Part shown: positions 18,984 through 63,345 of the stretch, piece after piece
Layout of the letters: each line of letters begins with the position of its first letter
Position numbering within the stretch: position 1 is the first letter of the stretch
Assembly (NCBI GenBank): GCA_902556405.1
Contig: CACDWF010000001.1
Coordinates: 62,001-126,000 of the forward strand
Origin: an uncultured Alphaproteobacteria bacterium
GTDB lineage: Bacteria; Pseudomonadota; Alphaproteobacteria; Rhodobacterales; Rhodobacteraceae
Length of the DNA stretch: 64,000 bases
Direction of reading: 5' to 3'
Notes under the pieces: generated by a model
Database searches by the model: none
What the model was told of the DNA's origin: nothing
The model's input: the letters and a program-made list of their open reading frames with translations, nothing else
Translations under genes and position numbers: made by a program

Positions 18984-20171
18984 TCAGACCGTTGTTTGTT
19001 TAAAAAATCCAAATTGACTAGAGAAGAATATCAAACCTAAGATTGGTCCAGGCAATAAGATCCAAACAAAATATAGACCAAGAGATTCATGAAAGTGCGT
19101 GGTTAAAAAAATAGTGATCATACTGATTGAGAAGCCAACACAATTCTGAGTGGTCAAAGCAGTCCCAACTAAGTGTTTTGGACAAACACTTGCAGAAATT
19201 GCCGAAAATTGAGGTGAGTCAGAAATAACGAAAAATCCCCACAGCATCAGTAAAAATAGATCAAGAAAAAAGCTAAGATTGCCAAGCAGCGGATAAATTA
19301 AGCAGATTGAGAGACTTAAGGCTAAAGAGAGTGACGCAACTCTGCTGCTACCGAAAGGTTTTGCTAAAATTCCACCTAAAACACAACTTATAAAACCTAT
19401 GCCAATAATTAAAAAGCTTAATAATGAAATGATAAACTCTTGTTTATCAATTTCATGCTGAGAGACTGATATTGCGATTAGAATTGGAACACAAGTCCAG
19501 AAAGCATATAATTCCCACATATGTCCAAAATAGCCGACTGCAGAAGCTATATATTTTCTGTTTCCTAAAAGTTCGCTGACTTGGTCTAATAGTCGAAAGG
19601 AAGGTTTTTCGTATGTAACTAAATGAGGCCCATCTCCCATGAGATATATTGTAACTCCTGCAATGTAGCATAGCCCAGAAGTAATTATAACAGTATAATG
19701 CCAATCAAATGAAATACCTAAAGCTCTTATAAGATAGGGTAAGGATGAACCTAGGACTAACATGCCTACAAGAAGTCCTAACGTATTGGGCGCCTTTTGA
19801 GGGTTCCAACTAATTATGAGTTTCATGCCAATTGGGTAGATTCCTGCTAGCGCTACACCAACAACTAATCGAGAAAAAATAACAGAGGTAAAAGAAATTT
19901 CTTCAAATACAATTAAAGCATTGGATGTTGCCCCTAAGAAACAGCAAAGCATTACAATTCGTGATGGTTTAAACTTGTCTGCAAATCCGGTAACTGAAAA
20001 GAGTAGTGTGCCAATAATAAAACCAAACTGAACGGAATTTGTTAATAAACCGAGATCACTAGTTGAAAGCGACCATATTTGTTCAATCTGTTTCAATACA
20101 CCATTAGTGCTAAACCATAACGAAGTACCAAACATTTGGGCTAGTACTATTAATAAGATAGGATTATTCAT
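18984..20171 (-). CDS. MFS transporter
   Basis: This 395-residue integral membrane protein has about twelve hydrophobic segments. It begins LLIVLAQMFGTSLWFSTNGV, a start seen in CynX/NNP-like and MFS_1 proteins. A loop after helix 2 (GFADKFKPSRIVMLC) carries the MFS-type basic motif. Its first codons overlap the end of the enoyl-CoA hydratase gene on the same strand by 8 bases, so the two are probably cotranscribed. The substrate is unknown; uptake of a carboxylic acid degraded by the upstream enzyme is one possibility. Confidence 0.85.
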   Translation of the reverse strand: MNNPILLIVLAQMFGTSLWFSTNGVLKQIEQIWSLSTSDLGLLTNSVQFGFIIGTLLFSVTGFADKFKPSRIVMLCCFLGATSNALIVFEEISFTSVIFSRLVVGVALAGIYPIGMKLIISWNPQKAPNTLGLLVGMLVLGSSLPYLIRALGISFDWHYTVIITSGLCYIAGVTIYLMGDGPHLVTYEKPSFRLLDQVSELLGNRKYIASAVGYFGHMWELYAFWTCVPILIAISVSQHEIDKQEFIISLLSFLIIGIGFISCVLGGILAKPFGSSRVASLSLALSLSICLIYPLLGNLSFFLDLFLLMLWGFFVISDSPQFSAISASVCPKHLVGTALTTQNCVGFSISMITIFLTTHFHESLGLYFVWILLPGPILGLIFFSSQFGFFKQTTV

Positions 20172-22580: not shown

Positions 22581-23714
22581 TTACAGTATTTTCTTTAACG
22601 TTTCAGTGAAATGTTCGAAATCAGTTGAATTATTCCATAAGTGAGGCGTAATCCTTAAATTACCACCTCTTTCGGAGACAAATATTTGGTTTTCTGCCAA
22701 AGTTTCAAGAATATTTTTTGGAGCTTTAGGAGGTAGTTTTGCACCTATAAAATGAGGCCCTCGATTTTCAGGCCTTGGAATTTGTAACCCTAAATCGCTA
22801 AGCTTTTTACAGAGATTAAGATTGGAATTATAGAGAGTGCTCTGAATGTTGGGTATACCCCATTTCTGTATTTGACGGAGAGCCTCTAGTACGCCTGGAA
22901 TAAGAGAAAAATTTGATCTTTGCCCCATATCATACCTAATTGCTCCAGGTTCATAATAATCCTGGTAATCGACAAGGTTTGCAAAATCCTTACTGTTTTT
23001 TCTTGTTATCCAGCCTTCTTCAAGTGGCTCCCCATTATGGAATTTGGGAGAAACATAAAGAAACCCGGTTGAGTAGGGGCCAAGCATCCACTTATAATTT
23101 GCTACAATTGCGAAAGCAGGATCTATTTTACTTAGGTCTATTTCAAAAGCGCCAGCCGATTGGGTAAGGTCAATAACAAGTTCGGTTTTACATTCCAAGC
23201 ATTGTGCTTTCACTTTTTCTAAATCAATTAATGATCCATTTGTCCATAATACATTTGCAGTTGCGCAGACGCTAACCCGTTCATCTAAAGCGTCGATTAT
23301 ATGATCTGTAGCTGCTTCACCATCAGGGACATTTACAGTTTTGATCTCAGCACCTTTTTGCTTAGCGATACGCCGCCACGGATAGACATTAGATGGAAAC
23401 TGGTCAGATAGAACAAGTATTTTTGAGCCCGCTGAAATCTGTAAATTTTTTGCGGCAGTTTGAACACCATAAGAAGCGGAGGGAATAATAGCTATATTGG
23501 TTCCAACTGTATGCATAAGGTTTGAAAATAAATCCCGAGCCTCTTCTATATCATCAAAAAAATTGCTTATCTTGAGTTTCCATGGATTGGCTTTTAAACG
23601 ACTTCCGCTATCTATGGCACTAACGACGCTGTTCAAAAGGGGAGACATGTATGCGGTGTTTAAATATGCGACGTCTTCAGGAATATCAAAAAGATGTCTT
23701 TGGCAAGGGATCAT
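22581..23714 (-). CDS. class V PLP aminotransferase/lyase
   Basis: The 377-residue enzyme has the class V fold. The PLP-binding Lys208 is in VANYKWMLGPYSTGF, and the preceding DLTQSAGAFEIDL segment supplies the Asp that contacts the pyridine ring. This subgroup includes selenocysteine-lyase-like, kynureninase-like and isopenicillin-epimerase-like enzymes. The true reaction is not deducible. It lies 16 bases after the class III aminotransferase on the same strand, at the end of the long minus-strand block containing pyrimidine and F420 genes. A role in amino-group metabolism is likely. Confidence 0.85.
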   Translation of the reverse strand: MIPCQRHLFDIPEDVAYLNTAYMSPLLNSVVSAIDSGSRLKANPWKLKISNFFDDIEEARDLFSNLMHTVGTNIAIIPSASYGVQTAAKNLQISAGSKILVLSDQFPSNVYPWRRIAKQKGAEIKTVNVPDGEAATDHIIDALDERVSVCATANVLWTNGSLIDLEKVKAQCLECKTELVIDLTQSAGAFEIDLSKIDPAFAIVANYKWMLGPYSTGFLYVSPKFHNGEPLEEGWITRKNSKDFANLVDYQDYYEPGAIRYDMGQRSNFSLIPGVLEALRQIQKWGIPNIQSTLYNSNLNLCKKLSDLGLQIPRPENRGPHFIGAKLPPKAPKNILETLAENQIFVSERGGNLRITPHLWNNSTDFEHFTETLKKIL

Positions 23715-23729
23715 GTGTTCTTATTTAAA

Positions 23730-25013
23730 CTAGGATATTTCTGCAATGCCCTCAGCCGCTTTTTTAAATGCGCTATCAGTTGTCTGAAGATCTTCTTCAG
23801 TAAGCGCAAGGTGTGTATAAAGTTTGGCATCGGCTTTGAGTATTCCGTGTTCTCTAACTATTTGATTGAAAGTTTTTGAATATTCAGCCTTATTTTTCTT
23901 TGTATCACGGTAATTAATAACAGGTGTTTCGGAAAAAATAATATCGAAAAGTGTTGGATCGCCAACAATTTGAAACTCTATATTATTACTTTTAAGATGG
24001 TTTGATACGCTATCGATTAAAAACTGCCCGTTTTCTCTTATTCTATCATAAGCACCATCTCTTCTAAGTATCTCCATGGTTTTTAAACCAGCTACTGCTG
24101 CCAACGGGTTTCCACTAAGGGTACCTATTTGGAAAGTAAACCTTTCTTCGCCAACAATATTTTTGTCAAAATGGTCCATAATTTCTTTTTCACCGGCAAT
24201 AGCCGCTAGAGGTAAGCCACCTCCAATGATCTTCCCAAGCGTGCATAAATCGGGCACTACTCCGTACAGCTCTTGTGCACCGCCGTAGGCCAACCTAAAA
24301 CCAGTTACTATTTCATCAAAAATCAAAAGCGCACCAATTCTTTTTGTTTCAGCCCTTAGATGCTCTAAAAATCCTTTTATTGGCGGAATTATTCTTTGAA
24401 GTGGTTCTACAATTACCCCAGCAATTTGATCTGAATACTCGTTCATTATTTCTGTAGCGACTTGAGGATCGTTGAATGGTGCAACCAAAATATCATCTCT
24501 AACGGCTTCAGGTATGCCCGCTGAATCAGGCACTGCCAATGGGAAATTTACCATTTTGTTAGGTGCAAGACTCATCAAGGAGTCTCCACTCATCCCGTGA
24601 TAACCTCCCTCAAATTTGAGGATTTTATTTCTACCAGTATGTGCTCTCGCCAATCGCATCGCATACATATCAGCTTCACCACCAGAGCTTACAAATCTAA
24701 TCTGCTCTGCACATTTCACTGCGTTACAAATTTCTTCAGCCAACTCTATTCCTTTTGAATTATTGGTAAAAAAAGTAAGACCTTCACCGAGTTGGGCCCG
24801 TATAGCATCCAATACTTCTTCATTTCCATGGCCCAGTATCATTGGCCCTGAACCGATTAAAAAATCGATATATTCTTTGTTGTCTTCATCCCATACGCGT
24901 GAACCCAAACCTCTTTTTAGACTGATGCTAGGATCAAAATTGCCAAAACCTGCACCTGGAAGAACCTTCTGTGCTCTGCTTTGCCATTCTTTGAGGGATA
25001 TATTTTTATTCAT
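23730..25013 (-). CDS. class III aminotransferase, HemL-like
   Basis: This 427-residue PLP enzyme matches glutamate-1-semialdehyde-aminomutase-like class III aminotransferases. EGGYHGMSGDS is near residue 135, the PLP pyridine Asp is in FDEIVTGFRLAYGGAQ near 232, and the Schiff-base Lys261 is in LGKIIGGGLPLAA. True HemL is possible but unlikely in this catabolic setting; transamination of a beta-amino acid or omega-amino compound fits better. If pyrimidine breakdown occurs upstream, it could take the resulting beta-alanine, which is an inference. A terminator lies between it and the ABC binding-protein gene. Confidence 0.85.
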   Translation of the reverse strand: MNKNISLKEWQSRAQKVLPGAGFGNFDPSISLKRGLGSRVWDEDNKEYIDFLIGSGPMILGHGNEEVLDAIRAQLGEGLTFFTNNSKGIELAEEICNAVKCAEQIRFVSSGGEADMYAMRLARAHTGRNKILKFEGGYHGMSGDSLMSLAPNKMVNFPLAVPDSAGIPEAVRDDILVAPFNDPQVATEIMNEYSDQIAGVIVEPLQRIIPPIKGFLEHLRAETKRIGALLIFDEIVTGFRLAYGGAQELYGVVPDLCTLGKIIGGGLPLAAIAGEKEIMDHFDKNIVGEERFTFQIGTLSGNPLAAVAGLKTMEILRRDGAYDRIRENGQFLIDSVSNHLKSNNIEFQIVGDPTLFDIIFSETPVINYRDTKKNKAEYSKTFNQIVREHGILKADAKLYTHLALTEEDLQTTDSAFKKAAEGIAEIS

Positions 25014-25080: not shown

Positions 25081-26073
25081 CTATTTTAATGCAGCATCCG
25101 TAATCTCGTGAGTCCATGCGCCAACTGGCTTTTTAGTTATAACAGGATCGGACCCTCCCTTAAGAAGTGTTGCCACTGTTCTGTCAAAATCGGCAGGTTC
25201 AAGTGCGCCATTTGACCCAGCTGTAAGCTTTGCAATTTCGCCCATCATCCTCTTCTGGTGTTTCTCAGTTTGCGCACCGGTAGCGTCATTATCTAAGACT
25301 ATTTCAGCAGCCCCGTCTGGGTTACTCTCTGCCCACTTCCAACCCTTCATAGAAGCTCTTACAAATCGTACCATTTGATCTTTAAAACTTGCATCCTTTA
25401 ACCGATCTTCAAGAACGTAAATACCATCTTCTAGAGTAGCTACTCCCTGGTCCTGATACTTAAAAACAACGAGATCATCTGGTGTTAAGCCAGCATCAAT
25501 GACCTGCCAATATTCATTGTAAGTCATCGTAGAAATGCAATCGGCTTGTTTTTGCAAGATTGGGTCAACGTTAAAACCTTGCTTTAGGATCGTAACGCCG
25601 TCAGATCCTCCGTTTGTAGGAATCCCTAGCTGGCTCATCCATGATAGGAATGGATATTCATTACCAAAAAACCATACTCCTATTGTTTTTCCTCGGAAAT
25701 CTGCAGGTGATTTAATTCCAGTCTCTTTTCTGCAGGTAAGCTGTAAACCTGAAGACTTAAACGGCTGAGCAATGTTTACAATTGGAACGCCTTTTTCTCT
25801 CGCTGCTAGCGCTGAGGGCATCCAATTAAGCATTAAATCTGCACCACCACCTGCGAGCACCTGTGGAGGTGCGATATCGGGACCACCAGGCTTAATAGTT
25901 ACGTCTAAACCTTCGTCAGCATAGTAACCTTTGTCTTTAGCTACGTAATATCCGGCAAACTGTGCCTGAGTTACCCACTGTAGTTGTAACGTGAGCTTGT
26001 CAGCTGCATTTGCAGTGATGCTACTTAAAGCTAAAAGCAATGCACCTAAAAGGCCTCCTAAAACTTTTTTCAT
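25081..26073 (-). CDS. NMT1/THI5-type ABC substrate-binding protein
   Basis: The 330-residue periplasmic protein has a cleavable signal peptide (MKK, hydrophobic core, ANAA near residue 23). Its mature domain starts KLTLQLQWVTQAQFAGYYVAKDKGYY, the hallmark of NMT1/THI5-like proteins that bind pyrimidine precursors such as hydroxymethylpyrimidine or related small molecules. It heads downstream-neighbour order ATPase, permease, permease, binding protein in one minus-strand run. Because dihydropyrimidinase is immediately upstream, a pyrimidine ligand is the best guess. It is followed by a strong terminator. Riboflavin and taurine-like ligands are alternatives within the wider family. Confidence 0.9.
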   Translation of the reverse strand: MKKVLGGLLGALLLALSSITANAADKLTLQLQWVTQAQFAGYYVAKDKGYYADEGLDVTIKPGGPDIAPPQVLAGGGADLMLNWMPSALAAREKGVPIVNIAQPFKSSGLQLTCRKETGIKSPADFRGKTIGVWFFGNEYPFLSWMSQLGIPTNGGSDGVTILKQGFNVDPILQKQADCISTMTYNEYWQVIDAGLTPDDLVVFKYQDQGVATLEDGIYVLEDRLKDASFKDQMVRFVRASMKGWKWAESNPDGAAEIVLDNDATGAQTEKHQKRMMGEIAKLTAGSNGALEPADFDRTVATLLKGGSDPVITKKPVGAWTHEITDAALK

Positions 26074-26091
26074 ATACTTTCTCCTTATGTT

Positions 26092-27186
26092 TTAATTCCC
26101 TCTTATTGAAGGATGCCAGAATGTTAACCTTTTTTCAATAAAAGTTATTATTCCATAGGTAATAGTGCCGACTAGCGCCGCAACAGTTATTTCAGCCCAA
26201 ACCATATCTAAGTTCATTCTTCCCACCTCAGTTGATATTCTGAACCCTACCCCTACAATAGGTGTTCCAAAAAACTCAGCTACAATTGCTCCTATTAATG
26301 CAAGTGTGGAATTTATTTTAAGCGCATTGAATATAAAGGGAGCAGCTCCATGAAGCCGTAAAAAAAATAAAGTTTGCGAATATGACGCCCCATATGTCTT
26401 CATTAGATCTTTCTCAATTTGACTGCTAATGCTCAAACCCGTTATTGTATTTACAAGCATCGGGAAAAAAGTCATTATCACAACTACCGCTGCCTTAGAC
26501 TCCCAATCAAAACCAAACCACATAACCATAATTGGTGCCACTCCAATAATAGGCAATGCTGAAATAAAATTCCCTATAGGTAATAACCCTCGCTTCAAAA
26601 AAGGAGAGCTATCGATCAAAATAGCAATGAGAAGCCCACTGCTACAACCTATCAAATAACCAATTAAAGCGGATTTTACAAAAGTTTGAATAAAGTCTGC
26701 CCACAATATATCTAGAGAAGCAATAAATTTGATACCAATTACGCTGGGAGAAGGTAATATCACAACTGGAATTTTTAGCCCCACAGTAGCCACCTCCCAG
26801 AAAAAAATTATCCACACACCAAAAAAAATGGGGGCTACAAAGTTTCTTATGGTACTTGAATAATCAGTCTCAAATTGTTTTTGCATTATTTTTTCAACTG
26901 CAAGCCAGCTATACAACCAAGAAGAGAAGATAAGAGGCCAACTTCCAATTGGAAGATCTTCATGTAGATTTAGAATAACAAATATTATTGTGGCTACGCC
27001 AATAAATAAATCGTAATAAAAAGATGCAAAAAAAGGAAAAAAAAGTCTTAGGCCTAATAAAATTCCGACAATAGAAAGTATCAAAACAATGATGTTTGAC
27101 TCTGAAAATGAAATAGTAGAGCTGACGAAGCACATGGCTGAAAAAAATAGAGCAAAAGTTAATAAAATATTGCTAAGCTTCCTCAT
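26092..27186 (-). CDS. ABC transporter permease with N-terminal membrane extension
   Basis: This 364-residue protein consists of about 110 N-terminal residues with four hydrophobic segments, followed by a standard BPD_transp_1 permease of the SsuC/ThiX type. In the permease part PSPSVIGIKF and the EAA coupling loop around MKTYGASYSQTLFFLRLHGAAP are visible. The extra N-terminal helices make it longer than the usual 250-residue member. Its first codons overlap the end of the preceding permease by 14 bases. Together with that partner it forms the importer channel. Confidence 0.9.
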   Translation of the reverse strand: MRKLSNILLTFALFFSAMCFVSSTISFSESNIIVLILSIVGILLGLRLFFPFFASFYYDLFIGVATIIFVILNLHEDLPIGSWPLIFSSWLYSWLAVEKIMQKQFETDYSSTIRNFVAPIFFGVWIIFFWEVATVGLKIPVVILPSPSVIGIKFIASLDILWADFIQTFVKSALIGYLIGCSSGLLIAILIDSSPFLKRGLLPIGNFISALPIIGVAPIMVMWFGFDWESKAAVVVIMTFFPMLVNTITGLSISSQIEKDLMKTYGASYSQTLFFLRLHGAAPFIFNALKINSTLALIGAIVAEFFGTPIVGVGFRISTEVGRMNLDMVWAEITVAALVGTITYGIITFIEKRLTFWHPSIRGN

Positions 27187-28090
27187 TAGTATAGCCCATT
27201 TTTTTTGATACTAAATATCCGATTGCTTGAATGGAAAAAACGAGAGTAGCTGCCAAAATTGATGCCATTATTAACGCGGACCAAATTTGGATTGTCTGAC
27301 CATAATACGATCCAGTTAAAAGGCGTGCCCCAAGACCTGCTACTGCTCCTGTCGGAAGTTCTCCGACGATCGCGCCGACAAGCGATATTGCTATTGCTAC
27401 TTTCATCGATGTAAAAAGAAATGGTACCGATGCTGGTAGTCGTAATTTAAAAAATATGTCAACTTTTGAACTATTATAAGTTTTCATTAAATCTACCAAT
27501 ATAATATCAGGGCTTCTAAGACCTTTCACCATACCAACAACAATAGGAAAAAAACTTAGGTAAGTGGATATCAGTGCTTTCGGAAGAAGGCCAGAAAAAC
27601 CCAATGAATTCAATACTACGATAATCATTGGAGCAATAGCCAATATGGGAATTGTTTGACTTGCTATTATCCAAGGCATCAAGGAACTCTCCATTGCTCG
27701 GTTTTCTACTATGCTTACTGCTAGCACAACTCCTAATACAGTCCCCAGCATAAAACCAACTATGGTAGAGGACAACGTAATCGAACTGTGATAAATCAAT
27801 GACCTTTTTGAGGTAATCTTTTTTTCAACTGTTGTTTTCCAAATTTCTTCTGCTATTTGATGTGGTGCTGGCAATTTCGGTCTCTCTTGAGACATTGTGT
27901 CTAGCACAAGTTTTGAAATATTCCATGAAATGCCCTGCCTGTCATACTTATCTATTTGCATAGCTGAATTTAAATAAATAGTAAAAAAATACCAAACTAC
28001 AGTTAGTAAAAATAGAATAGTTAAAATTGGTAAAATTTTTTCAGCAATTTTCTTCAAAAACTTGTTAGCCCTTATTCTCATTGTAGTCAT
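27173..28090 (-). CDS. ABC transporter permease, second subunit
   Basis: The 305-residue BPD_transp_1 permease has about six membrane helices. A large periplasmic loop (residues 40-90) lies after the first helix, and an EAA loop is recognisable in LMKTYNSSKVDIFFKLRLPASVPF. It belongs to the SsuC/TauC/ThiX-like group that partners NMT1-type binding proteins. Its start overlaps the ATPase gene end by 26 bases; a second ATG three codons in would reduce that to 17. It is translationally coupled to both neighbours. Confidence 0.9.
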   Translation of the reverse strand: MTTMRIRANKFLKKIAEKILPILTILFLLTVVWYFFTIYLNSAMQIDKYDRQGISWNISKLVLDTMSQERPKLPAPHQIAEEIWKTTVEKKITSKRSLIYHSSITLSSTIVGFMLGTVLGVVLAVSIVENRAMESSLMPWIIASQTIPILAIAPMIIVVLNSLGFSGLLPKALISTYLSFFPIVVGMVKGLRSPDIILVDLMKTYNSSKVDIFFKLRLPASVPFLFTSMKVAIAISLVGAIVGELPTGAVAGLGARLLTGSYYGQTIQIWSALIMASILAATLVFSIQAIGYLVSKKMGYTNEEA

Positions 28091-28856
28091 ACCCAGAACG
28101 TAACCCCTCTCTTACTCTCTGCGAAATTGATATAAATTCTTTACTATCTCTTATTTCTAACGAACGAGAAGAAGGAAATGGACTCTTAATAACATCCACA
28201 ATTCTCCCTGGCCTAGGCGACATTACTACAATTTTTGTTGATAGAAACACAGCTTCAGGAATTGAATGCGTTACAAAGCAGATTGTCTTACCAGTTTTTT
28301 GCCAAAGATCCAATAGTTGTTCATTTAGGTGATCTCTTACTATTTCATCTAATGCGCCAAACGGTTCATCCATAAGAAGCAGATCGGCATCAAAAGATAA
28401 GGCTCTAGCAATAGAAGCTCTTTGTTGCATTCCACCAGATAACTGCCATGGAAATTTCTTTTCGAAGCCATTTAATTCTACTAAATTCAGTGACTCACTT
28501 ACCCTTTTCGAAATTTCTTCTCTGCTGTAATTCATGATTTCCAATGGTAAACTTACATTTTTAGATATGTTCCTCCATGGATAAAGACCTGCTGATTGAA
28601 AGACATAGCCATATGCTCTATTGGTTCTTGCCTCATCTGGCGAAACTCCATTCACTAATATGTGTCCCGAGGTAGGTTTCTCTAAAGCTGCAACAGTTCT
28701 CAAAAATGTCGTCTTTCCACAACCTGAGGGTCCAATAAAAGATACAAATTCACCTGCGCCCACTTCTAACGAAATGTTTTTAAGGGCAACAACTTCCTCT
28801 GAACCTCTTCCGAACTTTAATTCAACATTTTTTGCTGAAATTATTTTATCCGTCAT
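28065..28856 (-). CDS. ABC transporter ATPase (SsuB/TauB/ThiZ type)
   Basis: This 263-residue single-domain ATPase has Walker A GPSGCGKTTFLR near residue 43, Q-loop VFQSAGLYPWRN, signature LSGGMQQRASIARAL, Walker B LLLMDEPFGALDE and the H-loop VTHSIPEA. It matches the NitT/TauT family that energises the two permeases downstream. The stop of the upstream dihydropyrimidinase is 6 bases before its start, so catabolic enzyme and importer are probably one operon. Confidence 0.95.
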   Translation of the reverse strand: MTDKIISAKNVELKFGRGSEEVVALKNISLEVGAGEFVSFIGPSGCGKTTFLRTVAALEKPTSGHILVNGVSPDEARTNRAYGYVFQSAGLYPWRNISKNVSLPLEIMNYSREEISKRVSESLNLVELNGFEKKFPWQLSGGMQQRASIARALSFDADLLLMDEPFGALDEIVRDHLNEQLLDLWQKTGKTICFVTHSIPEAVFLSTKIVVMSPRPGRIVDVIKSPFPSSRSLEIRDSKEFISISQRVREGLRSGYDYNENKG

Positions 28857-28862
28857 TTTTTA

Positions 28863-30323
28863 TTAGATGCCAGATGGTATATTTAAAGGGTCTCGTTCGA
28901 TTTTCCTAGGTGTATTAAGCGCCTTCCATTTTGAGACAGCACTATGTAACGCTGGGAACGCAGGTCTTGGGACAAATCTACCTCTTCCTGGTTGAGGACT
29001 AGAGTTTTTACCCCATGCCCAAATGACATCGCCTCTTGATAACGTGTATCTCGGTTGTGCTGTGACTTTGAAACCTTCGAAAACATTGTAGTCTAAAATT
29101 GATTTGTGGGTACTTGTCGAAATTGTTTTAGAAATCTTTGGGTCCCAAACAACAATATCTGCATCTGCGCCTTCTAAAATAGCTCCTTTTTTTGGATAAA
29201 TATTAAGAATTTTAGCAATATTACTTGAAGTAATTGCAACAAACTCTTGTCGGGTTAGACGCCCGGTTTCTACGCCCTCTGTCCAAAGAACTGATAACCT
29301 TTCCTCAAGCCCGTTACTACCATTCGGAATTTTAGTGAAGTCATTTACTCCCATTCTTTTTTGTTCCGTTGAAAACGCGGCATGGTCTGTAGCGACAACT
29401 TGCAGAGACCCAGACTGCAGACCAGCCCATAATCCGTCCTGATGAGATTTGTCTCTAAAGGGAGGCGACATCACCCGTCTAGCGGCATGTTCCCAATCTT
29501 TATTAAAGTACTCGCTCTCATCTAGGGTCAGAAATTGAATAAGGGGCTCACCAAAAACTCTCATACCTTTTTGCCTAGCTCTTCTAATTGCTTCATGGGC
29601 CTGCTCACAAGATACGTGAACAACATACAATGGTACTCCTGCGGCATCTGCTATCATTATTGCTCTATTAGCTGCTTCACCTTCTACCTCTGGCGGTCTT
29701 GAGTATGCATGCCCCTCAGGACCAGTTACTCCGTCTTGAAGATATTTTTGTTGAAGCTCGGCGACAATATCACCATTTTCTGCATGAACCATTGGCAGAG
29801 CACCGATAGCGGCACATCTTTTAAAAGATGCAAACATTTCATCATCTTCAATCATTAAGGCTCCTTTATAAGCCATAAAATGCTTGAAGGAATTCACTCC
29901 CATATCAACTACCTTTGGCATATCATCAAAAATCTGTTCAGACCAACCGGTAACAGCCATGTGATAACCAATGTCAGAACAAATTTGAGGCTCTGATTTT
30001 CTATGCCACTCCTTTACCGCATTAACCAAGCTGCCATCCTCTCCTGGAAGACAGAAGTCTACTAACATCGTTGTTCCGCCGACTGCGGCTGCCCAGGTGC
30101 CTGTTTCAAAAGTCTCAGCGGCAGTGGTTCCCATAAATGGCATCTCAAGGTGTGTATGTGGGTCTATTCCACCGGGGATCACGTAAGCGCCTTCGGCGTC
30201 AATGGTTTCATCCCCTTTTAGATTTTCCCCAATCTGCTTAATTTTTTCATTTTCTATTAACACGTCGGCTTTCCACTCTCTGTCAGCTGTTACAATGGTT
30301 CCACCCTTTATCACTTTAGTCAT
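28863..30323 (-). CDS. hydA: dihydropyrimidinase (hydantoinase-type amidohydrolase)
   Basis: The enzyme opens 5,6-dihydrouracil or dihydrothymine, and often hydantoins, to N-carbamoyl-beta-amino acids. The 486-residue length is normal. The binuclear metal site is visible: HTHLEM near residue 57, the lysine to be carboxylated in FKHFMAYKGA near 150, VHAENGD, VVHVSC and ATDHAAF (catalytic Asp). GGGAGG lies a few bases before the ATG. It sits between the M20 carbamoyl hydrolase and the ABC importer, so together they would import a pyrimidine-type ring and cleave it. Allantoinase or D-hydantoinase activity is an alternative. Confidence 0.93.
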   Translation of the reverse strand: MTKVIKGGTIVTADREWKADVLIENEKIKQIGENLKGDETIDAEGAYVIPGGIDPHTHLEMPFMGTTAAETFETGTWAAAVGGTTMLVDFCLPGEDGSLVNAVKEWHRKSEPQICSDIGYHMAVTGWSEQIFDDMPKVVDMGVNSFKHFMAYKGALMIEDDEMFASFKRCAAIGALPMVHAENGDIVAELQQKYLQDGVTGPEGHAYSRPPEVEGEAANRAIMIADAAGVPLYVVHVSCEQAHEAIRRARQKGMRVFGEPLIQFLTLDESEYFNKDWEHAARRVMSPPFRDKSHQDGLWAGLQSGSLQVVATDHAAFSTEQKRMGVNDFTKIPNGSNGLEERLSVLWTEGVETGRLTRQEFVAITSSNIAKILNIYPKKGAILEGADADIVVWDPKISKTISTSTHKSILDYNVFEGFKVTAQPRYTLSRGDVIWAWGKNSSPQPGRGRFVPRPAFPALHSAVSKWKALNTPRKIERDPLNIPSGI

Positions 30324-30336
30324 TTTACCCTCCCAA

Positions 30337-31584
30337 TTAAACTATTTCCGCAGCCTCTAATACTGCATGCAATAAAACATCGGCACCAGCTGAAGCCCAC
30401 TTTTCGGATATCTCTTCCGCTTCATTGTGGCTCAAACCGTCGACGCACGGGCACATTATCATAGCCGTTGGTGCTACCTTATTTATCCAGCAAGCGTCGT
30501 GCCCAGCTCCCGATATAATATTTTTATGTGAGTACCCTAATCTCTCAGCGGCTCTTCTAACTTTGTCTACACAGCCTTCATCAAAAGTCACGGGGTCAAA
30601 ATGCCCAACCTTTTCAAATTCCACAGCCAATTCCAAATCAGAAGCAATTTTCTTAGCTCCTTCATATAGACGTTTTTCCATATCATCCTGGACGTCAAAT
30701 GATGGAGATCTAAAATCTATAGTGAACACCACTCTCCCGGGAATTATGTTTCTACTATTAGGAAACACATCGCATTGACCTATTCCACCAACTGCGGATG
30801 GTTGGTGGCTCATAGCGATCTCTTGAACAAGCTCTGTAATCCTAGCCATACCTAGACCAGCATTTTTACGCATCGGCATAGGGGTTGATCCCGTATGACT
30901 TTCTCGACCATTAAGTGTTACTTGTATCCAATTTAGGCCTTGTCCATGGGTCACAACGCCAATATCTTTATTTTCAGCTTCTAATATTGGCCCTTGCTCT
31001 ATGTGGAGTTCGAAAAAAGCATGCATTTTTCGTGACCCTACTTCTTCGTCACCAATCCATCCGATGCGCTTGATTTCTTCTCCAAACGTTTTTCCAGCTG
31101 CATCCTTTCTATCATAAGCCCATTGGAGATCATGTATTCCTGCAAAAACTCCCGATGCCATCATTGGAGGAGCAAAGCGAGTTCCCTCTTCATTTGTAAA
31201 ATTTACGACAACAATTGGGTGCTTTGTTTTTATATCAAGTTCATTGAGTGTTCTTATTATTTCCAACCCACCCAGAACTCCTAAAACTCCATCATACTTA
31301 CCGCCAGTTGGCTGGGTATCAAGATGGCTTCCAACGTAAACAGGTAAAGCATTTGGGTCTGTTCCTTCACGTCTAGCGAACATTGTTCCCATTTTGTCAA
31401 CACCCATTTCCAAATTTTCTTTATCACACCACTTTTGAAACAACACTCGTCCTTCTGCGTCTTCGTCTGTGAGTGTTTGTCTGTTGTTTCCACCTGCAAC
31501 ACCGGGACCTATTTTTGCCATCTCCATTAGGGAGTCCCAAAGACGAGATGAATTTATTTTTAAATTAGCTGCTGGTGTTGACAT
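30337..31584 (-). CDS. M20-family carbamoyl-amide hydrolase (beta-ureidopropionase/AllC-like)
   Basis: This 415-residue zinc hydrolase belongs to the group containing beta-ureidopropionase, N-carbamoyl-L-amino-acid hydrolase and allantoate amidohydrolase. Metal-site motifs are GSHLDTQPTGGKYDGVLG, FTNEEGTRF and ELHIEQGPILE, with HDACWI near the C terminus. It would hydrolyse the product of the adjacent dihydropyrimidinase to beta-alanine, CO2 and ammonia. The gap to that gene is 13 bases. An RBS (AAGAGGATC) precedes the ATG. Assignment to ureidopropionase rests on context, because these activities are hard to separate by sequence. Confidence 0.92.
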   Translation of the reverse strand: MSTPAANLKINSSRLWDSLMEMAKIGPGVAGGNNRQTLTDEDAEGRVLFQKWCDKENLEMGVDKMGTMFARREGTDPNALPVYVGSHLDTQPTGGKYDGVLGVLGGLEIIRTLNELDIKTKHPIVVVNFTNEEGTRFAPPMMASGVFAGIHDLQWAYDRKDAAGKTFGEEIKRIGWIGDEEVGSRKMHAFFELHIEQGPILEAENKDIGVVTHGQGLNWIQVTLNGRESHTGSTPMPMRKNAGLGMARITELVQEIAMSHQPSAVGGIGQCDVFPNSRNIIPGRVVFTIDFRSPSFDVQDDMEKRLYEGAKKIASDLELAVEFEKVGHFDPVTFDEGCVDKVRRAAERLGYSHKNIISGAGHDACWINKVAPTAMIMCPCVDGLSHNEAEEISEKWASAGADVLLHAVLEAAEIV

Positions 31585-31603
31585 TCGATCCTCTTAATAA
31601 ATT

Positions 31604-32515
31604 TTATATCTTCGCCTTTGTATTATCACTAATTAGCATTAATAATGCAAAGGCAATTATAAAGCCTCCAAAAATTATGTTTGCATTTGGAAAGCTTGAG
31701 TTAATAATTATCTCTCCTAGTGCCACCCAAAAGGGAACAGCATAGGTGTAGGCCATTACTTTTGAAGCACTGATTTTTTTTGCTGCAAACTGAATTAAGA
31801 AAAAAGTAAAAGCTGTCGCAAATGTTGCCAAGTAAATTATAGTTATCCAAATCAATGGAGATAAGCTGAGCCAATTTGTTTCTACAACGTCACTAGTAAA
31901 CATTAATATGAGTAGTAGGAATCCAGCACTTAAAGTTCCTAGTGTTTGCGTCGCTGCATTTTCTCCTTTGTTGAGAACAGGGATTAAAATAGCATATAGA
32001 GCGTGTCCAACACACCCCCAAAAAAAAAGTAGTTCGCCATAGCCTATTCGAAATGCTATAAGGTTTCCTAGATTGCCTTCGAAAATTACCCAAATTGCTC
32101 CAATTGCTCCAAGTGAAATCGCGACAAACGCCTTGAGTGTCACTTTTTTGTTTAAAAAATATTCAAAAAAAAGTGCAATAAAAGGGGTGAGCGTAAAAAC
32201 TACAGCCAGTGATAGAGAAGAAGCTGTTTTTAGCGCTTCGAACATTAAAACAAAATAGATAACTATGCTTAATCCGAGAATGAGAAATCGCCATGGTTTT
32301 TTAAAGTCCTCTTTCTTTAGTTTTTTTGAGATGTATAATAATGTTCCCATTACACTTGCCCCTATCAAAAACCTTGCTGCTGTTATGGCTCCTGGTTCTA
32401 TATCATTTGCAACCATCGCACCTAAAATGTAAGAAACCGATACACAAAGGGAGAAAAGAAGCATTGCCCCGTGTCCCCAAACCTCTGATGTCTCTACTGA
32501 TATTTTTTTTTTCAA
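31604..32515 (-). CDS. EamA/DMT-family transporter
   Basis: The 303-residue protein has ten membrane helices in two EamA repeats. The end-of-repeat pattern appears as FTLTPFIALFFEYFLNKKVTLKA near residue 120 and as YTYAVPFWVALGEII in the second repeat. It lies between the LLM oxidoreductase and the M20 hydrolase, all minus strand, with only 19 bases to the latter. It may export or import an intermediate of the same pathway, such as a carbamoyl or amino acid, but there is no direct evidence of substrate. Confidence 0.87.
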   Translation of the reverse strand: MKKKISVETSEVWGHGAMLLFSLCVSVSYILGAMVANDIEPGAITAARFLIGASVMGTLLYISKKLKKEDFKKPWRFLILGLSIVIYFVLMFEALKTASSLSLAVVFTLTPFIALFFEYFLNKKVTLKAFVAISLGAIGAIWVIFEGNLGNLIAFRIGYGELLFFWGCVGHALYAILIPVLNKGENAATQTLGTLSAGFLLLILMFTSDVVETNWLSLSPLIWITIIYLATFATAFTFFLIQFAAKKISASKVMAYTYAVPFWVALGEIIINSSFPNANIIFGGFIIAFALLMLISDNTKAKI

Positions 32516-32612
32516 GAGCTAATTAACCTAAAACATTCCCCAAGTTATATTTGTGATGCTGTTTTTACAGCTAAGAAATAGAAAAAGTCTGTTTTACAAT
32601 AACTGAGGCATT

Positions 32613-33614
32613 TTATGAAAAAGCTGGTATTACATTTTCGCCATATTCTGCGATAATTCTTTCCTCGTCTCCACTATCCAGATAAATATTGAATTGGGTT
32701 ACTCCGAGATCTTTCAACGTTTTTAGTTTTTTTACATGTTGATCAGCGGTTCCCAAAACACAAAATTCTTCAACTATTTCATCTGTGATAAACTCTAAAT
32801 AGGGATTGTCGCTCTGGCCATGCTTAGAGTAATCATAGCCACGGCGATCTTTAATGTAGTCCGTAAGGCTGTTGGGAATGTCTTTGTTATCTTCACCATA
32901 CTTCTCAACTATATCAGCTACGTGATTTCCAACCATTGCGGGGAACCACTTTACTTTTTCAATACTTTCCGCTCTGTCTCCAAAGTAAGCAGGTGCGGCC
33001 ACCATTACCTTGTAGTCTGACATATCACGTCCGTGTTCTTCTCCTGCCTTTACCGCTTGATCTCTGAGCCACTTGCAAACGGTTGGAGAAGCAATTTGAA
33101 GCACCAAACCATCTCCAACTTTTCCCGCAGACGTAAGAGCCTTTGGGCCGTATGCAGCTACCCAGACTGGTAATTCGTATCCTTCAGCCCATGGGAATTG
33201 GATTGGGTTTGGAACATCACCATACTGAACTTCATCACCCTTCACCATTGCCTTAACTTTTAAAATAAATTCCTCCATTCGTGCTAGGTTAGAAGGCTTC
33301 TTTCCCATCACGCGAACAGCGCTATCCCCTCTTCCAACACCGATATCAAAACGTCCATTCGATTGTAAAGCAAGTGAGCCAAACATTGATGCCGCTAAAG
33401 ACCAGTCTCTGGTGTTGGGGTTTGTTACACACGGTCCAAACCTCATTTTTTTTGTGTGTTCCATACACATGGCCATTTGAGCAAAACTTTCTCTCCAAAG
33501 TATATGGCTATCATAGAACCAGCAATAGGTGAAGCCGGCGCTTTCTGCCAATCTGACCAGTGCTTTTGCGCGATCTGGTTGAACAAACCCTTTAAAACAA
33601 ATCGCAAATTCCAT
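32613..33614 (-). CDS. F420-type LLM-class oxidoreductase
   Basis: The 333-residue protein is a luciferase-like TIM-barrel enzyme. It opens MEFAICFKGFVQP and contains the family stretches NTRDWSLAAS, NGRFDIGVGRGDSAVRVMGKKP near residue 90, and VAAYGPKALTSAGKVGDG near 170. These resemble methylene-tetrahydromethanopterin reductase and other F420-dependent LLM enzymes rather than FMN monooxygenases. From memory it fits the proteobacterial CPS_4043-like subgroup of unknown reaction. GGAGGAAG lies before the ATG. It follows genes for F420:NADP oxidoreductase, CofE and CofD and precedes pyrimidine-cleavage genes, so the substrate may be a pyrimidine (hypothesis). Confidence 0.88.
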   Translation of the reverse strand: MEFAICFKGFVQPDRAKALVRLAESAGFTYCWFYDSHILWRESFAQMAMCMEHTKKMRFGPCVTNPNTRDWSLAASMFGSLALQSNGRFDIGVGRGDSAVRVMGKKPSNLARMEEFILKVKAMVKGDEVQYGDVPNPIQFPWAEGYELPVWVAAYGPKALTSAGKVGDGLVLQIASPTVCKWLRDQAVKAGEEHGRDMSDYKVMVAAPAYFGDRAESIEKVKWFPAMVGNHVADIVEKYGEDNKDIPNSLTDYIKDRRGYDYSKHGQSDNPYLEFITDEIVEEFCVLGTADQHVKKLKTLKDLGVTQFNIYLDSGDEERIIAEYGENVIPAFS

Positions 33615-33629
33615 TTCTTCCTCCTTATT

Positions 33630-34298
33630 TTATTCCTCTGGTGGCCAAATTTTTATTCCGGCATGTGAAAAGGGCACCGCTTTGGACATATTTATTCTTA
33701 TCAATATAGGCGTTAGAGCCTCTAAACATCTTGCTGATGTTGCATCTCCAGCATTGTAAGCTTGGACTTCTAAATTTTTCAACAATTCTATAGTTTCTAA
33801 TCGAGCATCCAAATTATTTCCGCAGACTAAGATATCACAATTAATTTTTTTCTCTAAGTGATTTAGTGTATTTGCGGAAACATTATGAAGAGTACCAACC
33901 ACTGGTATATCAGGCCCTAATATGGCTTGAGCTGCTTCTGTAGCTGAGCCTTCAGGGGGCATAGCTACTTTTCTGGGGTTTCCGTCTTCCAATGGAACCA
34001 CTATGTCAACAAGTACCTTTTCCGCTAGCATGTCTTTGATTTCAGAAAGTGTATTGTTGTGACCACTCCAAGGTACTGAAAATATTACAAACTTGTCCGT
34101 GAATGCTATTGCTTCGCTATTCGAAAGCCCAGTTATCGATCCCTCGAGGTTTTGGTTTTTTGATGTTAAACTATCTGCAACTTCGATAGCTCTGCACTCA
34201 TCACGTGATCCCAAAGCAACTTCAAAACCTGCCTGAGCAAATCTAAGGGCAAGGCCTTTACCTTGGGGCCCAGTTCCTCCAATAATTGATAATTTCAT
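33630..34298 (-). CDS. F420H2:NADP oxidoreductase-like protein
   Basis: This 222-residue protein has an N-terminal dinucleotide fold beginning [15 protein letters not shown], followed by the SRD segment that in this family selects [13 protein letters not shown] and [10 protein letters not shown] segments lie further on. This size and layout match the NPDP-dependent F420 reductases (Fno) that exchange hydride between NADPH and F420. Its ATG overlaps the CofE stop by four bases, and it lies 15 bases upstream of the LLM gene. It would supply reduced F420 to, or recycle it from, the LLM oxidoreductase. Confidence 0.86.
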
Positions 34299-35074
34299 CT
34301 AAACATATCCTCATTTTGTTTCCGTAAAATATCGTTCGCAGAGCCATATTTGCCACTCCAGCTAAGCCCTCTTAGTAAAATGGCAGGGCATTTCCCTGCT
34401 TTACTCATTAGGAGGCCTGAAGATGCTGCTATTTCATCACAAAAAGCTGGTTCTGTCACGTATAATTGATGTCCCCAAGCATCGCTGGTTCCCTGTTTTT
34501 TTTTGGTTGCGGGTAGTCCTGAGACACCTATAGCAACATTGACTTGTCCAATTCTCCATGGTCTTCCAAAGGTGTCGCTCATAACTATCCCCAAGTTCTC
34601 CACATCAAAATGATTTTTAAGGTTATCTCTTAAAACTTGCACACTAAGGTCAGGATTTTTTGGGACGGTTATCACTGTTTCGTGACCTTCTATATTGGAT
34701 TCGTCAACTCCCGCATTAGCGCAGATAAATCCAAGTTTATGCTGGCATATAAGAGTTCCTTCATTTTGTTCCTCTCTCTTAAAAGAGCGAATAATATTGT
34801 TACTCTCTTGCAATACGACTTCGACCTTTCTTGGGTCCTTGTTAAGGCTTTTCCCGAGTTCGATTGCCTTTACGGAGGGAGAAATTTCTTTTAATTTTAT
34901 TATGCATCCCTCAGCTTTTGAAAATATTTTGTGTGCTATACAAATAACGTCAAATTCTTTTAAACACATAGATGATTTGTTTAAAGCAGAAATAAGAATG
35001 CCACTAATGTCGTCACCTTTATAAATGTCAGGAATATTTGGGATTATATTTAAATTTATCGTTGAATCTGACAT
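34295..35074 (-). CDS. cofE: coenzyme F420-0:L-glutamate ligase
   Basis: CofE adds one or more glutamates to F420-0 with GTP. The 259-residue length is normal for the stand-alone archaeal-type enzyme (actinobacterial FbiB is a longer fusion). Diagnostic segments are [10 protein letters not shown] near residue 52, [10 protein letters not shown] near 115, [18 protein letters not shown] near 163 and [19 protein letters not shown] near 215. It overlaps the downstream reductase by ATGA. CofD is encoded 97 bases upstream. Presence of CofE strongly suggests that the organism makes F420 itself. Confidence 0.93.
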
Positions 35075-35171
35075 ATTCTCTAATATCTACCTTAAACTGC
35101 AATTATATAAATTACATATTCAAATCTGTAATTACCTTTTTCAAAAAAAAGTTTTAAAGTTTTTTTGGAAA

Positions 35172-36113
35172 TCAATCAATAGGTTGGTCAATGATGAACT
35201 TAGCTAGCCTTTTCTTGTCTGAAAGAGATGTCATCAGAGTATCAGTAAATATAGGTTTCTGATTTTGCAAGACAAATTGTTTCTCAAGTCCTTTGTCGGA
35301 CCGATCAAGAATGAATGATTTGCAAATATCTTTATATATCTGCATACAACAAAAAGAATTTGGCTTGAAACCTAATTGTTTTAGCATTTTGACTGCAGGT
35401 CCTTTTACCGCTTTGCCTTGGATAAGCGGACTTATCGCCAGCACCTTTTTATTGTTTTTTTGAATGATCGATTTAAACCCAGGTATTTCAAGTATCGGTT
35501 TTATGCTTACTAACGGATTCGAAGGAGCAATGATTATAAGTTCAGCGTTTAAGAGTGCTATTTTTGCCTCCTTTGTTATTTTTGCTGATTTAATTCCACT
35601 GTATTTTAGCTTTATGATTTTCGGTGAACACCGTTTTTTGACAAAATATTCCTGGAATGATATCCAGCCCGACTTCGTCTGCACCTCTGTTCTAATCTTG
35701 TCGTCAGTAGGTAAGATTATATCTGCCGTTATCCCCAATTTTTTTGCGATCTCATTTGCGATAACAGTCGGACGGTGATCTTGTAATAGTCTAAGCTGTC
35801 TGTATATATGAATACCAAAGTCGAAATCACCTAAAGACATCCAGGTTTCCTCGCCTAATTTATTTAACATTGAGAGCGTTTTATAATCATCATTCTTTAC
35901 TCCCCATCCTTGCTCTCGGTTCACCATTCCTGAAAGTGTATACGTTAAGGTATCTATATCTGGAGAAACTCTTAGCCCATGAAACTCATCATCATCTGCA
36001 ACGTTACCAATGATAGCGAGATTTATATTTTCTATGGAATGTAGTCCTTCTGCTAATTTTGCACCGCCTACACCTCCTGCTATGAGAACAATATTTTTGA
36101 TAAATCGTTTCAT
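35172..36113 (-). CDS. cofD: 2-phospho-L-lactate (or phosphoenolpyruvate) transferase for F420
   Basis: CofD joins the deazaflavin Fo to a phospholactyl or phosphoenolpyruvyl group, forming F420-0 or its dehydro form. The 313-residue protein starts with GGVGGAKLAEGL, the nucleotide-binding loop. It continues with GNVADDDEFHGLRVSPDIDTL, a highly characteristic CofD stretch near residue 38, and APSNPLVSIKPIL near 213. It is the first gene of the minus-strand F420 and pyrimidine run. CofC and the Fo synthase (CofG/CofH or FbiC) are not in this window and must be elsewhere if the pathway is complete. Confidence 0.93.
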   Translation of the reverse strand: MKRFIKNIVLIAGGVGGAKLAEGLHSIENINLAIIGNVADDDEFHGLRVSPDIDTLTYTLSGMVNREQGWGVKNDDYKTLSMLNKLGEETWMSLGDFDFGIHIYRQLRLLQDHRPTVIANEIAKKLGITADIILPTDDKIRTEVQTKSGWISFQEYFVKKRCSPKIIKLKYSGIKSAKITKEAKIALLNAELIIIAPSNPLVSIKPILEIPGFKSIIQKNNKKVLAISPLIQGKAVKGPAVKMLKQLGFKPNSFCCMQIYKDICKSFILDRSDKGLEKQFVLQNQKPIFTDTLMTSLSDKKRLAKFIIDQPID

Positions 36114-62837: not shown

Positions 62838-62838
62838 C

Positions 62839-63345
62839 TTAGCCTTGCACGCTGGGTTTCTCAAATGTGTATCTAAAAGTACAGCATTTCCCACCACTCA
62901 TAATAGTGGTTTCTCGATTAAGTCTTGCATCTTGGTTGAATCCTTCAATCATTGCGGCATCTCTATTGCAAGACAAAACAGCGCCAAGGTCTTGTATTCC
63001 TAAAGCCTTATACATTTCGGCATATCTACACCTTGTTACATTGAAATCTAATTTTGTGTCATTCTTCTCAAGCAAGTCGATTTCCAGTGCTCCATCTTGA
63101 GTCCAGAACTTTAGTGTTTCAAGAAAAGCAGAAACATCATTGCCATATTCTTTTGCCAGAGATGAGCCTTGATTACGAGCTAGCTCCATAACTGTTTTTT
63201 CTAAAATCGGTATTATTTTTTCTTTGCCAAAGTTTTTTATTAGAGCATCTACAAAAGGTGCGATGATCCTAGCTTCTGTTTCGCGCCGTGTTAAAACTCC
63301 AATCTTTTGCGTCAGCTCATCTTTTAACTTTGTGTTGCTATCCAT
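62839..63345 (-). CDS. L-2-amino-thiazoline-4-carboxylate hydrolase-family protein
   Basis: The 168-residue protein matches the ATC-hydrolase family. Landmarks are VTRCRYAEMYKALGIQDLG near residue 107, LSCNRDAAMIEGFN near 127, and the C-terminal cysteine pair in GGKCCTFRYTF. Family members hydrolyse aminothiazoline carboxylate to a carbamoyl-cysteine intermediate and are also found as orphan genes beside amidohydrolases. It lies 29 bases downstream of the hydratase gene and 1 base before the membrane hydrolase. Real substrate here is unproven. Confidence 0.82.
   Translation of the reverse strand: MDSNTKLKDELTQKIGVLTRRETEARIIAPFVDALIKNFGKEKIIPILEKTVMELARNQGSSLAKEYGNDVSAFLETLKFWTQDGALEIDLLEKNDTKLDFNVTRCRYAEMYKALGIQDLGAVLSCNRDAAMIEGFNQDARLNRETTIMSGGKCCTFRYTFEKPSVQG

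Follow-up and report, generated by a model that had tools for sequence, protein, structure and literature searches.

A candidate F420-dependent uracil reductase encoded with pyrimidine degradation genes in Alphaproteobacteria

The window is a stretch of 64,000 nucleotides from an uncultured member of the Rhodobacteraceae (contig CACDWF010000001.1, here C1; the window begins at C1:62001). On its minus strand are thirteen consecutive genes, read from 36113 to 22581, in which genes for the synthesis and reduction of coenzyme F420 run into genes for the breakdown of pyrimidines. Among them, at 32613..33614, is the gene for a TIGR03842 luciferase-like hydride transferase (LLM). The run is most likely an operon for reductive pyrimidine degradation (Pyd), with a small F420-dependent enzyme in the place of the iron-sulfur/FMN/FAD enzyme PreTA/PydA. 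The LLM is probably an F420H2-dependent dihydropyrimidine dehydrogenase, or uracil reductase, that is recharged by the NADPH:F420 oxidoreductase NpdG and replaces PreTA. This reading is based on the gene content of the operon, the exchange of the LLM and PreA beside the same partner genes, and the co-occurrence of the LLM with F420 synthesis. An earlier note on this DNA had proposed a redox role for the deazaflavin in the metabolism of pyrimidines or related cyclic amides. The proposal is supported and can be made more specific: since the same genes are accompanied by either the F420/LLM block or PreA, each replacing the other, the step in question would be the reduction of uracil.

The reaction, its direction, its substrate, and the binding of F420 by the LLM are what we infer from these observations. 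The NMT1-type ATP-binding cassette (ABC) importer would bring in a pyrimidine, and NpdG would reduce F420 with NADPH. The LLM would then transfer a hydride from F420H2 to C6 of uracil, with a proton added to C5, to yield 5,6-dihydrouracil. Dihydropyrimidinase would open the ring to form N-carbamoyl-beta-alanine, which the M20 hydrolase would convert to beta-alanine, CO2, and ammonia. The nitrogen of beta-alanine might then be taken by an aminotransferase. Under this proposal, the cofactor genes travel with the LLM because the LLM needs F420.

Gene content of the operon

The operon begins with cofD, encoding the phosphoenolpyruvate/2-phospho-L-lactate-type transferase of F420 synthesis (35172..36113, minus strand, as for all genes of the run), which matches Pfam PF01933 at 134.4 bits (cut-off 30) and NCBIfam TIGR01819 at 255.0 bits, slightly below the cut-off of 257.45. 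It is followed by cofE, encoding F420-0:gamma-glutamyl ligase (34295..35074; TIGR01916, 222.8 bits, cut-off 180.65), by npdG/fno, encoding NADPH:F420 oxidoreductase, the proposed source of F420H2 (33630..34298; TIGR01915, 173.4 bits, cut-off 149.8), and by the LLM gene (TIGR03842, 504.7 bits, cut-off 295.45). The pyrimidine genes encode a predicted M20 N-carbamoyl-beta-alanine amidohydrolase (beta-ureidopropionase, PydC; 30337..31584; NF006769, 684.6 bits, cut-off 452) and a predicted dihydropyrimidinase (PydB; 28863..30323; TIGR02033, 590.7 bits, cut-off 393.25). By these profile scores, the two proteins are the putative N-carbamoyl-beta-alanine hydrolase and dihydropyrimidinase of the Pyd pathway. 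In sequence comparison with solved structures, the M20 protein matches PDB 8apz (E 1.3e-204) and 8c46, deposited as 'N-carbamoyl-beta-alanine amidohydrolase' (E 1.6e-201), and the dihydropyrimidinase matches the D-hydantoinase 4tqt (E 5.3e-223) and the dihydropyrimidinase 3dc8 (E 8.4e-221). The PreA/PydA of the pathway was not found in the window's genome by a search with NF006183, and the operon is therefore filed as a variant of the Pyd pathway and not as a standard member.

Gaps between the thirteen genes range from -26 to 97 bases (in order from cofD: 97, -4, 15, 97, 19, 13, 6, -26, -14, 18, 67, 15). The gene inventory of the earlier note, which listed cofD, cofE, an F420:NADP oxidoreductase-like gene, the LLM, an EamA transporter, the M20 hydrolase, dihydropyrimidinase, and an NMT1 importer in one direction with short gaps and overlaps, is borne out by profile matches. 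The boundaries are not: the importer (25081-28856) falls outside the interval of 28863-36113 given for the run, which also includes class III and class V aminotransferase genes and ends at 22581.

The remaining F420 synthesis genes are on the same contig. Both cofC (C1:45395-45976) and cofH (C1:46108-47142) score over their model cut-offs. Beside them is cofG (C1:47364-48341), called in this genome from its position and from a second, weaker, paralogous match of the cofH model; the cofG model itself was run on the relative L118. This second cof cluster (C1:45395-48341) lies outside the window, about 36 kb past the end of the operon. The source genome, a metagenome-assembled genome (MAG) of 2.19 Mb in 65 contigs that is rated 80% complete, is predicted to synthesize F420, with cofC, cofD, cofE, and cofH recognized by models and cofG by the weaker cofH-model match. 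The near relative L052, whose LLM is 89% identical, has the five cof genes in one group followed by npdG and the LLM; the division into two clusters may thus be peculiar to close kin of the window.

Recurrence of the F420 block beside pyrimidine genes

Relatives of the LLM numbered 330 in a collection of 84,980 named species genomes. The 80 nearest loci, a non-random sample, were analyzed with up to 10 kb per side, and their genes were identified in tblastn searches with proteins of the window and a few proteins of relatives as queries. These loci contain npdG in 72 cases, at least one of cofD/E/G/H in 71, M20 in 42, dihydropyrimidinase in 39, a RutR-like regulator in 39, and PreA in none. Unlinked homologues in related genomes had been named beforehand as grounds for abandoning the proposed pairing, but the linkage was upheld. 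A cof gene and a pyrimidine marker (M20, dihydropyrimidinase, RutR-like regulator, binding protein, or NCS1 permease) are both within 10 kb of the LLM in 58 of the 80 loci, or 49 of 69 if the 12 close kin of the window (L040-L051) are collapsed to one. About half of the 80 loci are cut by contig ends; both flanks are full in 41, and 33 of those 41 have a cof gene and a marker. The recurrence of the linkage in other genomes rules out a chance neighborhood.

The usual gene order is cofG-cofH-cofD-cofC-cofE-npdG-LLM. Hosts of the LLM include Pseudovibrio, Cohaesibacter, Leisingera, Limimaricola, Paracoccus denitrificans, SAR116, and Marinomonas. The description of the pairing as unusual was too modest, for it recurs in many marine Alphaproteobacteria, in a few Gammaproteobacteria (Marinomonas, Marinobacterium), and in one suggestive case in Streptomyces. 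The cassette is rare in Gammaproteobacteria, since only one of 274 sampled genomes, the centre genome itself, has an LLM at E 1e-80. In four loci (L060, L066, L073, and L111), the LLM is directly with M20, dihydropyrimidinase, and the importer, and the cof genes are not nearby. PreA was not found in the genomes of L060, L066, and L111, the three that were searched.

CofE is encoded in all 48 LLM genomes searched, namely those of 46 of the 80 loci, the window's genome (G000), and G288. By coordinates, G288 and G330 are the same genome, leaving 47 distinct; the CofE match of G339 is partial and below the cut-off. The only luciferase-family protein in the window's genome at E 1e-10 is the TIGR03842 LLM. 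Among 21 genomes, the window's and those of 20 of the 80 loci, four have a single such protein and P. denitrificans has 15, so F420 need not be confined to the LLM reaction in every host.

The cassette is also found on plasmids. A plasmid collection contains 12 records with an LLM at E 1e-60, of which four were opened. Three, from Leisingera caerulea, L. aquaemixtae, and Paracoccus alcaliphilus, have the F420 block in full, and the fourth is from Streptomyces. On the P. alcaliphilus plasmid p402633 (403 kb; L162 6587-13002), the whole F420 block with the LLM adjoins a further ABC importer and an operon for formate dehydrogenase that includes selA, and the 25 kb stretch of this locus has no dihydropyrimidinase annotation. 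One further locus, L071, comes from an assembly titled Nocardioides marinus. The RutR-like protein of L071 shares 93% identity with one encoded on a Leisingera plasmid, and the assembly is probably mislabelled or mixed.

Exchange with PreA

The same downstream genes occur in some loci with the F420/LLM block and in others with PreA, one taking the place of the other. The 26 PreA loci used for this comparison are 14 around the PreA of LLM genomes (12-13 kb each) and 12 from a sample of the class in which matches to PreA and dihydropyrimidinase lay close together; 17 stretches were chosen from the dihydropyrimidinase and PreA matches of the class sample, of which five without PreA (L149, L154, and L156-L158) were kept out. 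M20 and dihydropyrimidinase are present in 26 of 26 loci and a RutR-like regulator in 25, and there are no F420 genes and no LLM. All 14 loci around the PreA of LLM genomes have the regulator, M20, and dihydropyrimidinase, and an ABC binding protein is present in 11 of the 12 class-sample operons. The window's binding protein has orthologues that are 58-79% identical in PreA-type operons. Dihydropyrimidinases 82-83% identical to the window's are found in PreA operons L144, L145, and L146, one of them from the window's own family (G154).

In the tree built from 51 dihydropyrimidinases, of which 25 are beside F420/LLM genes, 24 beside PreA, and 2 beside neither, the partner changes at least eight times. 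The partner also changes at least eight times on a tree of 60 M20 proteins (34 beside F420 genes and 26 beside PreA). Both trees come from a short search and have several weak forks, and nine near-identical kin of the window (L040, L042-L048, and L051) were left out of the trees and of the box counts below. It therefore seems that the reductase was exchanged again and again while the function of the downstream enzymes stayed the same.

Counts across whole genomes agree with this exchange. The window's genome and those of 49 of the 80 loci, selected to favor isolates and long contigs, all encode dihydropyrimidinase (50 of 50), as compared to 46 of 289 genomes in the class sample. PreA (NF006183) is encoded in 17 of the 50 and was not found in 33, the window's among them. 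These 33 are 19 named isolates and 14 MAGs or single cells, for which absence is weaker evidence. One of the 33 is P. denitrificans DSM 413 (LLM locus L082), which gave no RutA match either. The number of dihydropyrimidinase copies follows the number of reductases: all 33 genomes without PreA have one, 16 of the 17 with PreA have two, and the remaining genome, G298, has one. In 44 genomes where both genes could be placed, dihydropyrimidinase is within 15 kb of cofE in 28 (4 with PreA) and not in 16 (7 with PreA), with contig breaks scored as unlinked.

In the 289 class genomes, an LLM over the cut-off was found in 4, PreA at E 1e-100 in 48, and a dihydropyrimidinase like the window's at E 1e-120 in 46, with at most five first-look candidates scored per genome for the latter two. 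Of the 46, 41 also have PreA. Among the other five, the window's genome, G196, and G288 have an LLM, and G073 and G285 have neither reductase. The LLM is enriched in dihydropyrimidinase genomes without PreA (Fisher p 0.0007, with kinship ignored). PreA is present in none of the four LLM genomes of this sample, which include G258, a genome without such a dihydropyrimidinase.

Regulation and electron supply in relatives

Many F420 loci encode a RutR-like regulator. That of L118 matches E. coli RutR structures at E 2e-45 and scores 182 bits on TIGR03613, below the cut-off of 368. Excerpts of PMC10891134 describe W77, Y97, W167, Q171, and Q179 as the RutR residues at the bound uracil and the RutR box as a palindrome of about 16 bp. 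All five residues are kept in 40 of 40 regulators of F420 loci (39 of the 80 and L163) and in the 25 regulators of PreA loci, except for one W167F. The search pattern had 14 fixed letters, which we take to be those of the E. coli RutR box. It was applied to the 250 bp upstream of each gene match, and expectations came from Markov shuffles; because the loci are related, the counts are not independent. Of 59 loci, 29 have the box upstream of cofG when up to three mismatches are allowed (0.65 expected), and 14 have it when up to two are allowed (0.0 expected). At three mismatches, it is also upstream of M20 in 8 of 36 F420 loci (0.33 expected) and 19 of 26 PreA loci (0.28 expected). Control positions upstream of the LLM (3 of 77; 0.9 expected), cofE (0 of 64; 0.65), and dihydropyrimidinase (0 of 59; 0.68) are near expectation. 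In the P. denitrificans locus, the best that was found is a site with four mismatches. The regulators and boxes together suggest uracil-dependent control in the relatives.

The neighboring genes also bear on the source of electrons. The position of NpdG beside the LLM fits NADPH as the donor. On the plasmids of L. caerulea and L. aquaemixtae (L163, L165 9254-12271), genes for a class III aminotransferase and the PntAB transhydrogenase are between M20 and cofG, and PntAB is a plausible NADPH supply. Of the 80 loci, 13 contain PntA sequence, and most of these 13 are truncated by a contig end. NpdG beside the LLM, together with PntAB in the cluster, points to the LLM working as a reductase and not as an oxidase.

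A broader proposal is that F420 is made to order. The whole of its biosynthesis would be in a uracil regulon, repressed by the RutR-like protein and released by uracil, chiefly for uracil reduction, as a module that passes between chromosome and plasmid and is exchangeable with PreTA. We give this an even chance. It would explain the mere traces of F420 reported for P. denitrificans (PMC8498797).

The LLM enzyme and its relatives

The window's LLM is placed in the TIGR03842 subfamily by its profile score; two Mer models give only 115.6 and 125.0 bits, far below their cut-offs. NCBI labels TIGR03842 a hypothetical equivalog. Among solved structures, Mer is nearest in sequence, followed by hydroxymycolic acid dehydrogenase, Adf, and Fgd-type F420 enzymes. 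An AlphaFold2 model of the LLM has a mean predicted local distance difference test score (pLDDT) of 85.7 and a predicted template modeling (TM) score (pTM) of 0.87. The top eight Foldseek matches of the model are Mer chains (query TM 0.79-0.82, 22-27% identity), and FMN-type luciferases and monooxygenases enter the list from rank 19. Binding of F420 and direct hydride transfer by the LLM would agree with this predicted fold and with the nearest relatives. By analogy, the reductive degradation of picrate, which is counted among luciferase-like hydride transferase reactions in excerpts of PMC8498797, may serve as a precedent for hydride transfer onto an electron-poor ring.

A distant member of the subfamily has a similar neighbor. 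On plasmid p1 of Streptomyces sp. BHT-5-2 (L161 8598-11008), a TIGR03842 LLM (590.5 bits, 44% identical to the window's) directly follows a dihydropyrimidinase (TIGR02033, 554 bits), in a part of the record that has no annotation. The two could be a catabolic pair or a piece of a biosynthetic cluster. A W/Y-type tRNA synthetase gene is about 2 kb beyond this LLM. When the plasmid collection was searched again with the Streptomyces LLM, the same 12 records were found and no further actinobacterial case.

Alternative explanations

Several observations weigh against a dedicated uracil reductase. The 80 loci were taken as the closest among 330 and not at random, and 49 of the 50 genomes were picked from those 80, the window's being the other. 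A pyrimidine marker is out of reach in 16 of the 80 loci, 7 of which have full flanks, though all 7 of these genomes encode dihydropyrimidinase elsewhere. G258 (98% complete) has the whole cof-npdG-LLM block (LLM 73% identical) without a dihydropyrimidinase at E 1e-120; no pyrimidine gene was recognized in the 20 kb fetched at its locus (L036 8983-19652), where the ten neighboring frames scanned include transporters, one of them of the major facilitator superfamily (MFS), two APH-type kinases, a 2-hydroxyacid dehydrogenase, and flagellin. The LLM may therefore have another or a wider use, as in G258. Two short G196 contigs with divergent LLMs (55%) and F420 genes also have no pyrimidine gene in reach, and the dihydropyrimidinase of G196 is on a different contig. 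As PreA is present as well in 17 of the 50 LLM genomes, the LLM in genomes with both systems may act on a different pyrimidine. Residues 231-270 of the LLM model have a pLDDT of only 54-60. Lastly, neither a RutR-like gene nor a strong box was found by the window's operon or at the close-kin loci L040-L053, the search having covered the vicinity of the operon and not the rest of the window's genome. RutR control of the window's own operon was thus set aside, and such control is claimed for relatives only.

Of the other explanations, the one with the most in its favor, though still unlikely, is that the LLM reduces or oxidizes another ring, such as hydantoin, thymine only, or a thiamine-type pyrimidine, with dihydropyrimidinase and M20 acting as hydantoinase and carbamoylase. 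Among solved structures, the dihydropyrimidinase is equally close to D-hydantoinase and dihydropyrimidinase, the binding protein resembles ThiY, and the roseobacters that carry both PreA and the LLM, of which 16 of 17 have a pair of dihydropyrimidinases, suggest some division of labor. Against it, the M20 protein is closest to structures deposited as hydrolases of N-carbamoyl-L-amino acids or N-carbamoyl-beta-alanine; the importer, M20, and dihydropyrimidinase have orthologues in PreA operons; and the regulators of relatives keep the uracil pocket. A still less probable explanation is that the F420 and pyrimidine genes are clustered indirectly, through a shared regulator or pyrimidine precursors of F420, and that the LLM has an unrelated job. 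The G258 block and the 16 loci without markers would fit such clustering. It does not account for the LLMs that accompany M20, dihydropyrimidinase, and the importer with no cof genes nearby (L060, L066, L073, L111), for the lack of a PreA match in the genomes of three of these (L060, L066, L111), or for dihydropyrimidinase copy numbers that track the number of reductase systems.

RutA is a luciferase-family protein that acts on uracil, and the LLM could in principle be an FMN-dependent oxygenase of this type that attacks uracil with O2, with the F420 genes as mere neighbors. We consider this scarcely credible. Dihydropyrimidinase requires a reduced ring. The closest proteins by sequence and fold are F420 enzymes, cofE is present in 48 of 48 genomes, and 72 of the 80 loci include npdG. 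On this co-occurrence and these nearest relatives, the identity as a RutA-type oxygenase was rejected. RutA itself (TIGR03612 at E 1e-100) was not found in 49 of the 50 LLM genomes, the window's included, and was found in one.

Relation to known systems

With the LLM read as a uracil reductase, the operon resembles the Pyd pathway with PreTA/PydA in its orthologous dihydropyrimidinase, N-carbamoyl-beta-alanine hydrolase, and ABC importer and, in many relatives, its RutR-like regulator. It differs in that PreA, an NAD(P)H-dependent iron-sulfur flavoenzyme, was not found and an unrelated F420-type TIM-barrel enzyme with F420 genes is in its place. The ferredoxin-dependent PydAc of Clostridium is likewise a Pyd variant with another electron donor, but in the excerpts of PMC7332683 it is still a PydA homologue with FMN and iron-sulfur domains, whereas the window's enzyme is of a different family. 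A closer likeness is found in uric acid clusters of Chloroflexota. Excerpts of a 2025 paper (PMC12507026) predict an F420 'luciferase family' yanthine reductase, acting on a uracil-type ring, in place of YgfK or UacX, the latter a PydA homologue. That pathway is for purines and in another phylum, and the prediction is a bioinformatic remark; the enzyme is likened here by its description. The Rut pathway shares a luciferase-family enzyme on uracil, RutA, and RutR control (the latter in part from excerpts of PMC10891134), but RutA is encoded in only one of the 50 LLM genomes and was not found in the window's. Mer, the F420-dependent methylenetetrahydromethanopterin reductase, is the closest solved relative in both fold and sequence, and its hydride donor is F420H2. 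It differs from the LLM in its low identity (22-27% in the Foldseek alignments) and in its substrate, a pterin one-carbon carrier.

Excerpts of a 2021 review (PMC8498797) list the role of F420 in Proteobacteria as an open question, state that F420-dependent enzymes of F420-producing bacteria outside Actinobacteria had not yet been studied experimentally, and report trace F420 in P. denitrificans, with a minor or niche role suspected. If the LLM is a uracil reductase, marine Alphaproteobacteria and P. denitrificans would make F420 as a hydride donor for uracil, and TIGR03842 would gain a function. The first step of pyrimidine breakdown for nitrogen would then be carried out with F420, a rare redox cofactor, instead of by the usual iron-sulfur flavin enzyme. 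Known electron donors for uracil reduction are, in the excerpts of PMC7332683, NADPH, NADH, and ferredoxin; F420H2 would be the fourth and the LLM a second enzyme family for the reaction. It would also provide a uracil reductase free of iron-sulfur clusters for biocatalysis, and, more speculatively, the loss of an enzyme with four iron-sulfur clusters could spare iron in the ocean. In the open literature, to which the search was limited, no paper on F420-dependent uracil reduction was recognized from titles and the beginnings of abstracts, and none named TIGR03842.

Other genes of the operon and window

Two long open frames elsewhere in the window, 61326-62897 and 18984-20171, had no NCBIfam match at E 1e-60. 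Within the operon, the two genes farthest from cofD encode aminotransferases. The class V aminotransferase-like protein (22581..23714, minus) matches PF00266 at 84 bits and has no PDB relative at E 1e-10. The class III protein (23730..25013, minus; PF00202) resembles glutamate-1-semialdehyde aminomutase (GSAM) and is a possible beta-alanine or beta-aminoisobutyrate aminotransferase. Its PDB relatives are mostly GSAMs, with the beta-transaminases 2yku and 4ao9 ranked lower. This ranking gave no firm assignment to beta-alanine.

Between the LLM and M20 genes is an EamA-type transporter gene (31604..32515, minus; TTG start as listed; PF00892). EamA is near the LLM in 17 of the 80 loci, 11 of which are the window's close kin. 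The importer consists of an ATPase (28065..28856, minus; PF00005), two permeases (27173..28090 and 26092..27186, both minus; PF00528), and an NMT1/ThiY-like substrate-binding protein (25081..26073, minus). The best PDB relative of the last is the aminomethylpyrimidine-binding protein 3ix1 (E 6.9e-23), and its ligand is likely of the pyrimidine type. The close kin L040-L051 have, at about 14.8-18.3 kb of their loci, two versions of this importer, 97-100% or about 58-72% identical to the window's. The genes on either side are near-identical, as if the importer alone had been swapped.

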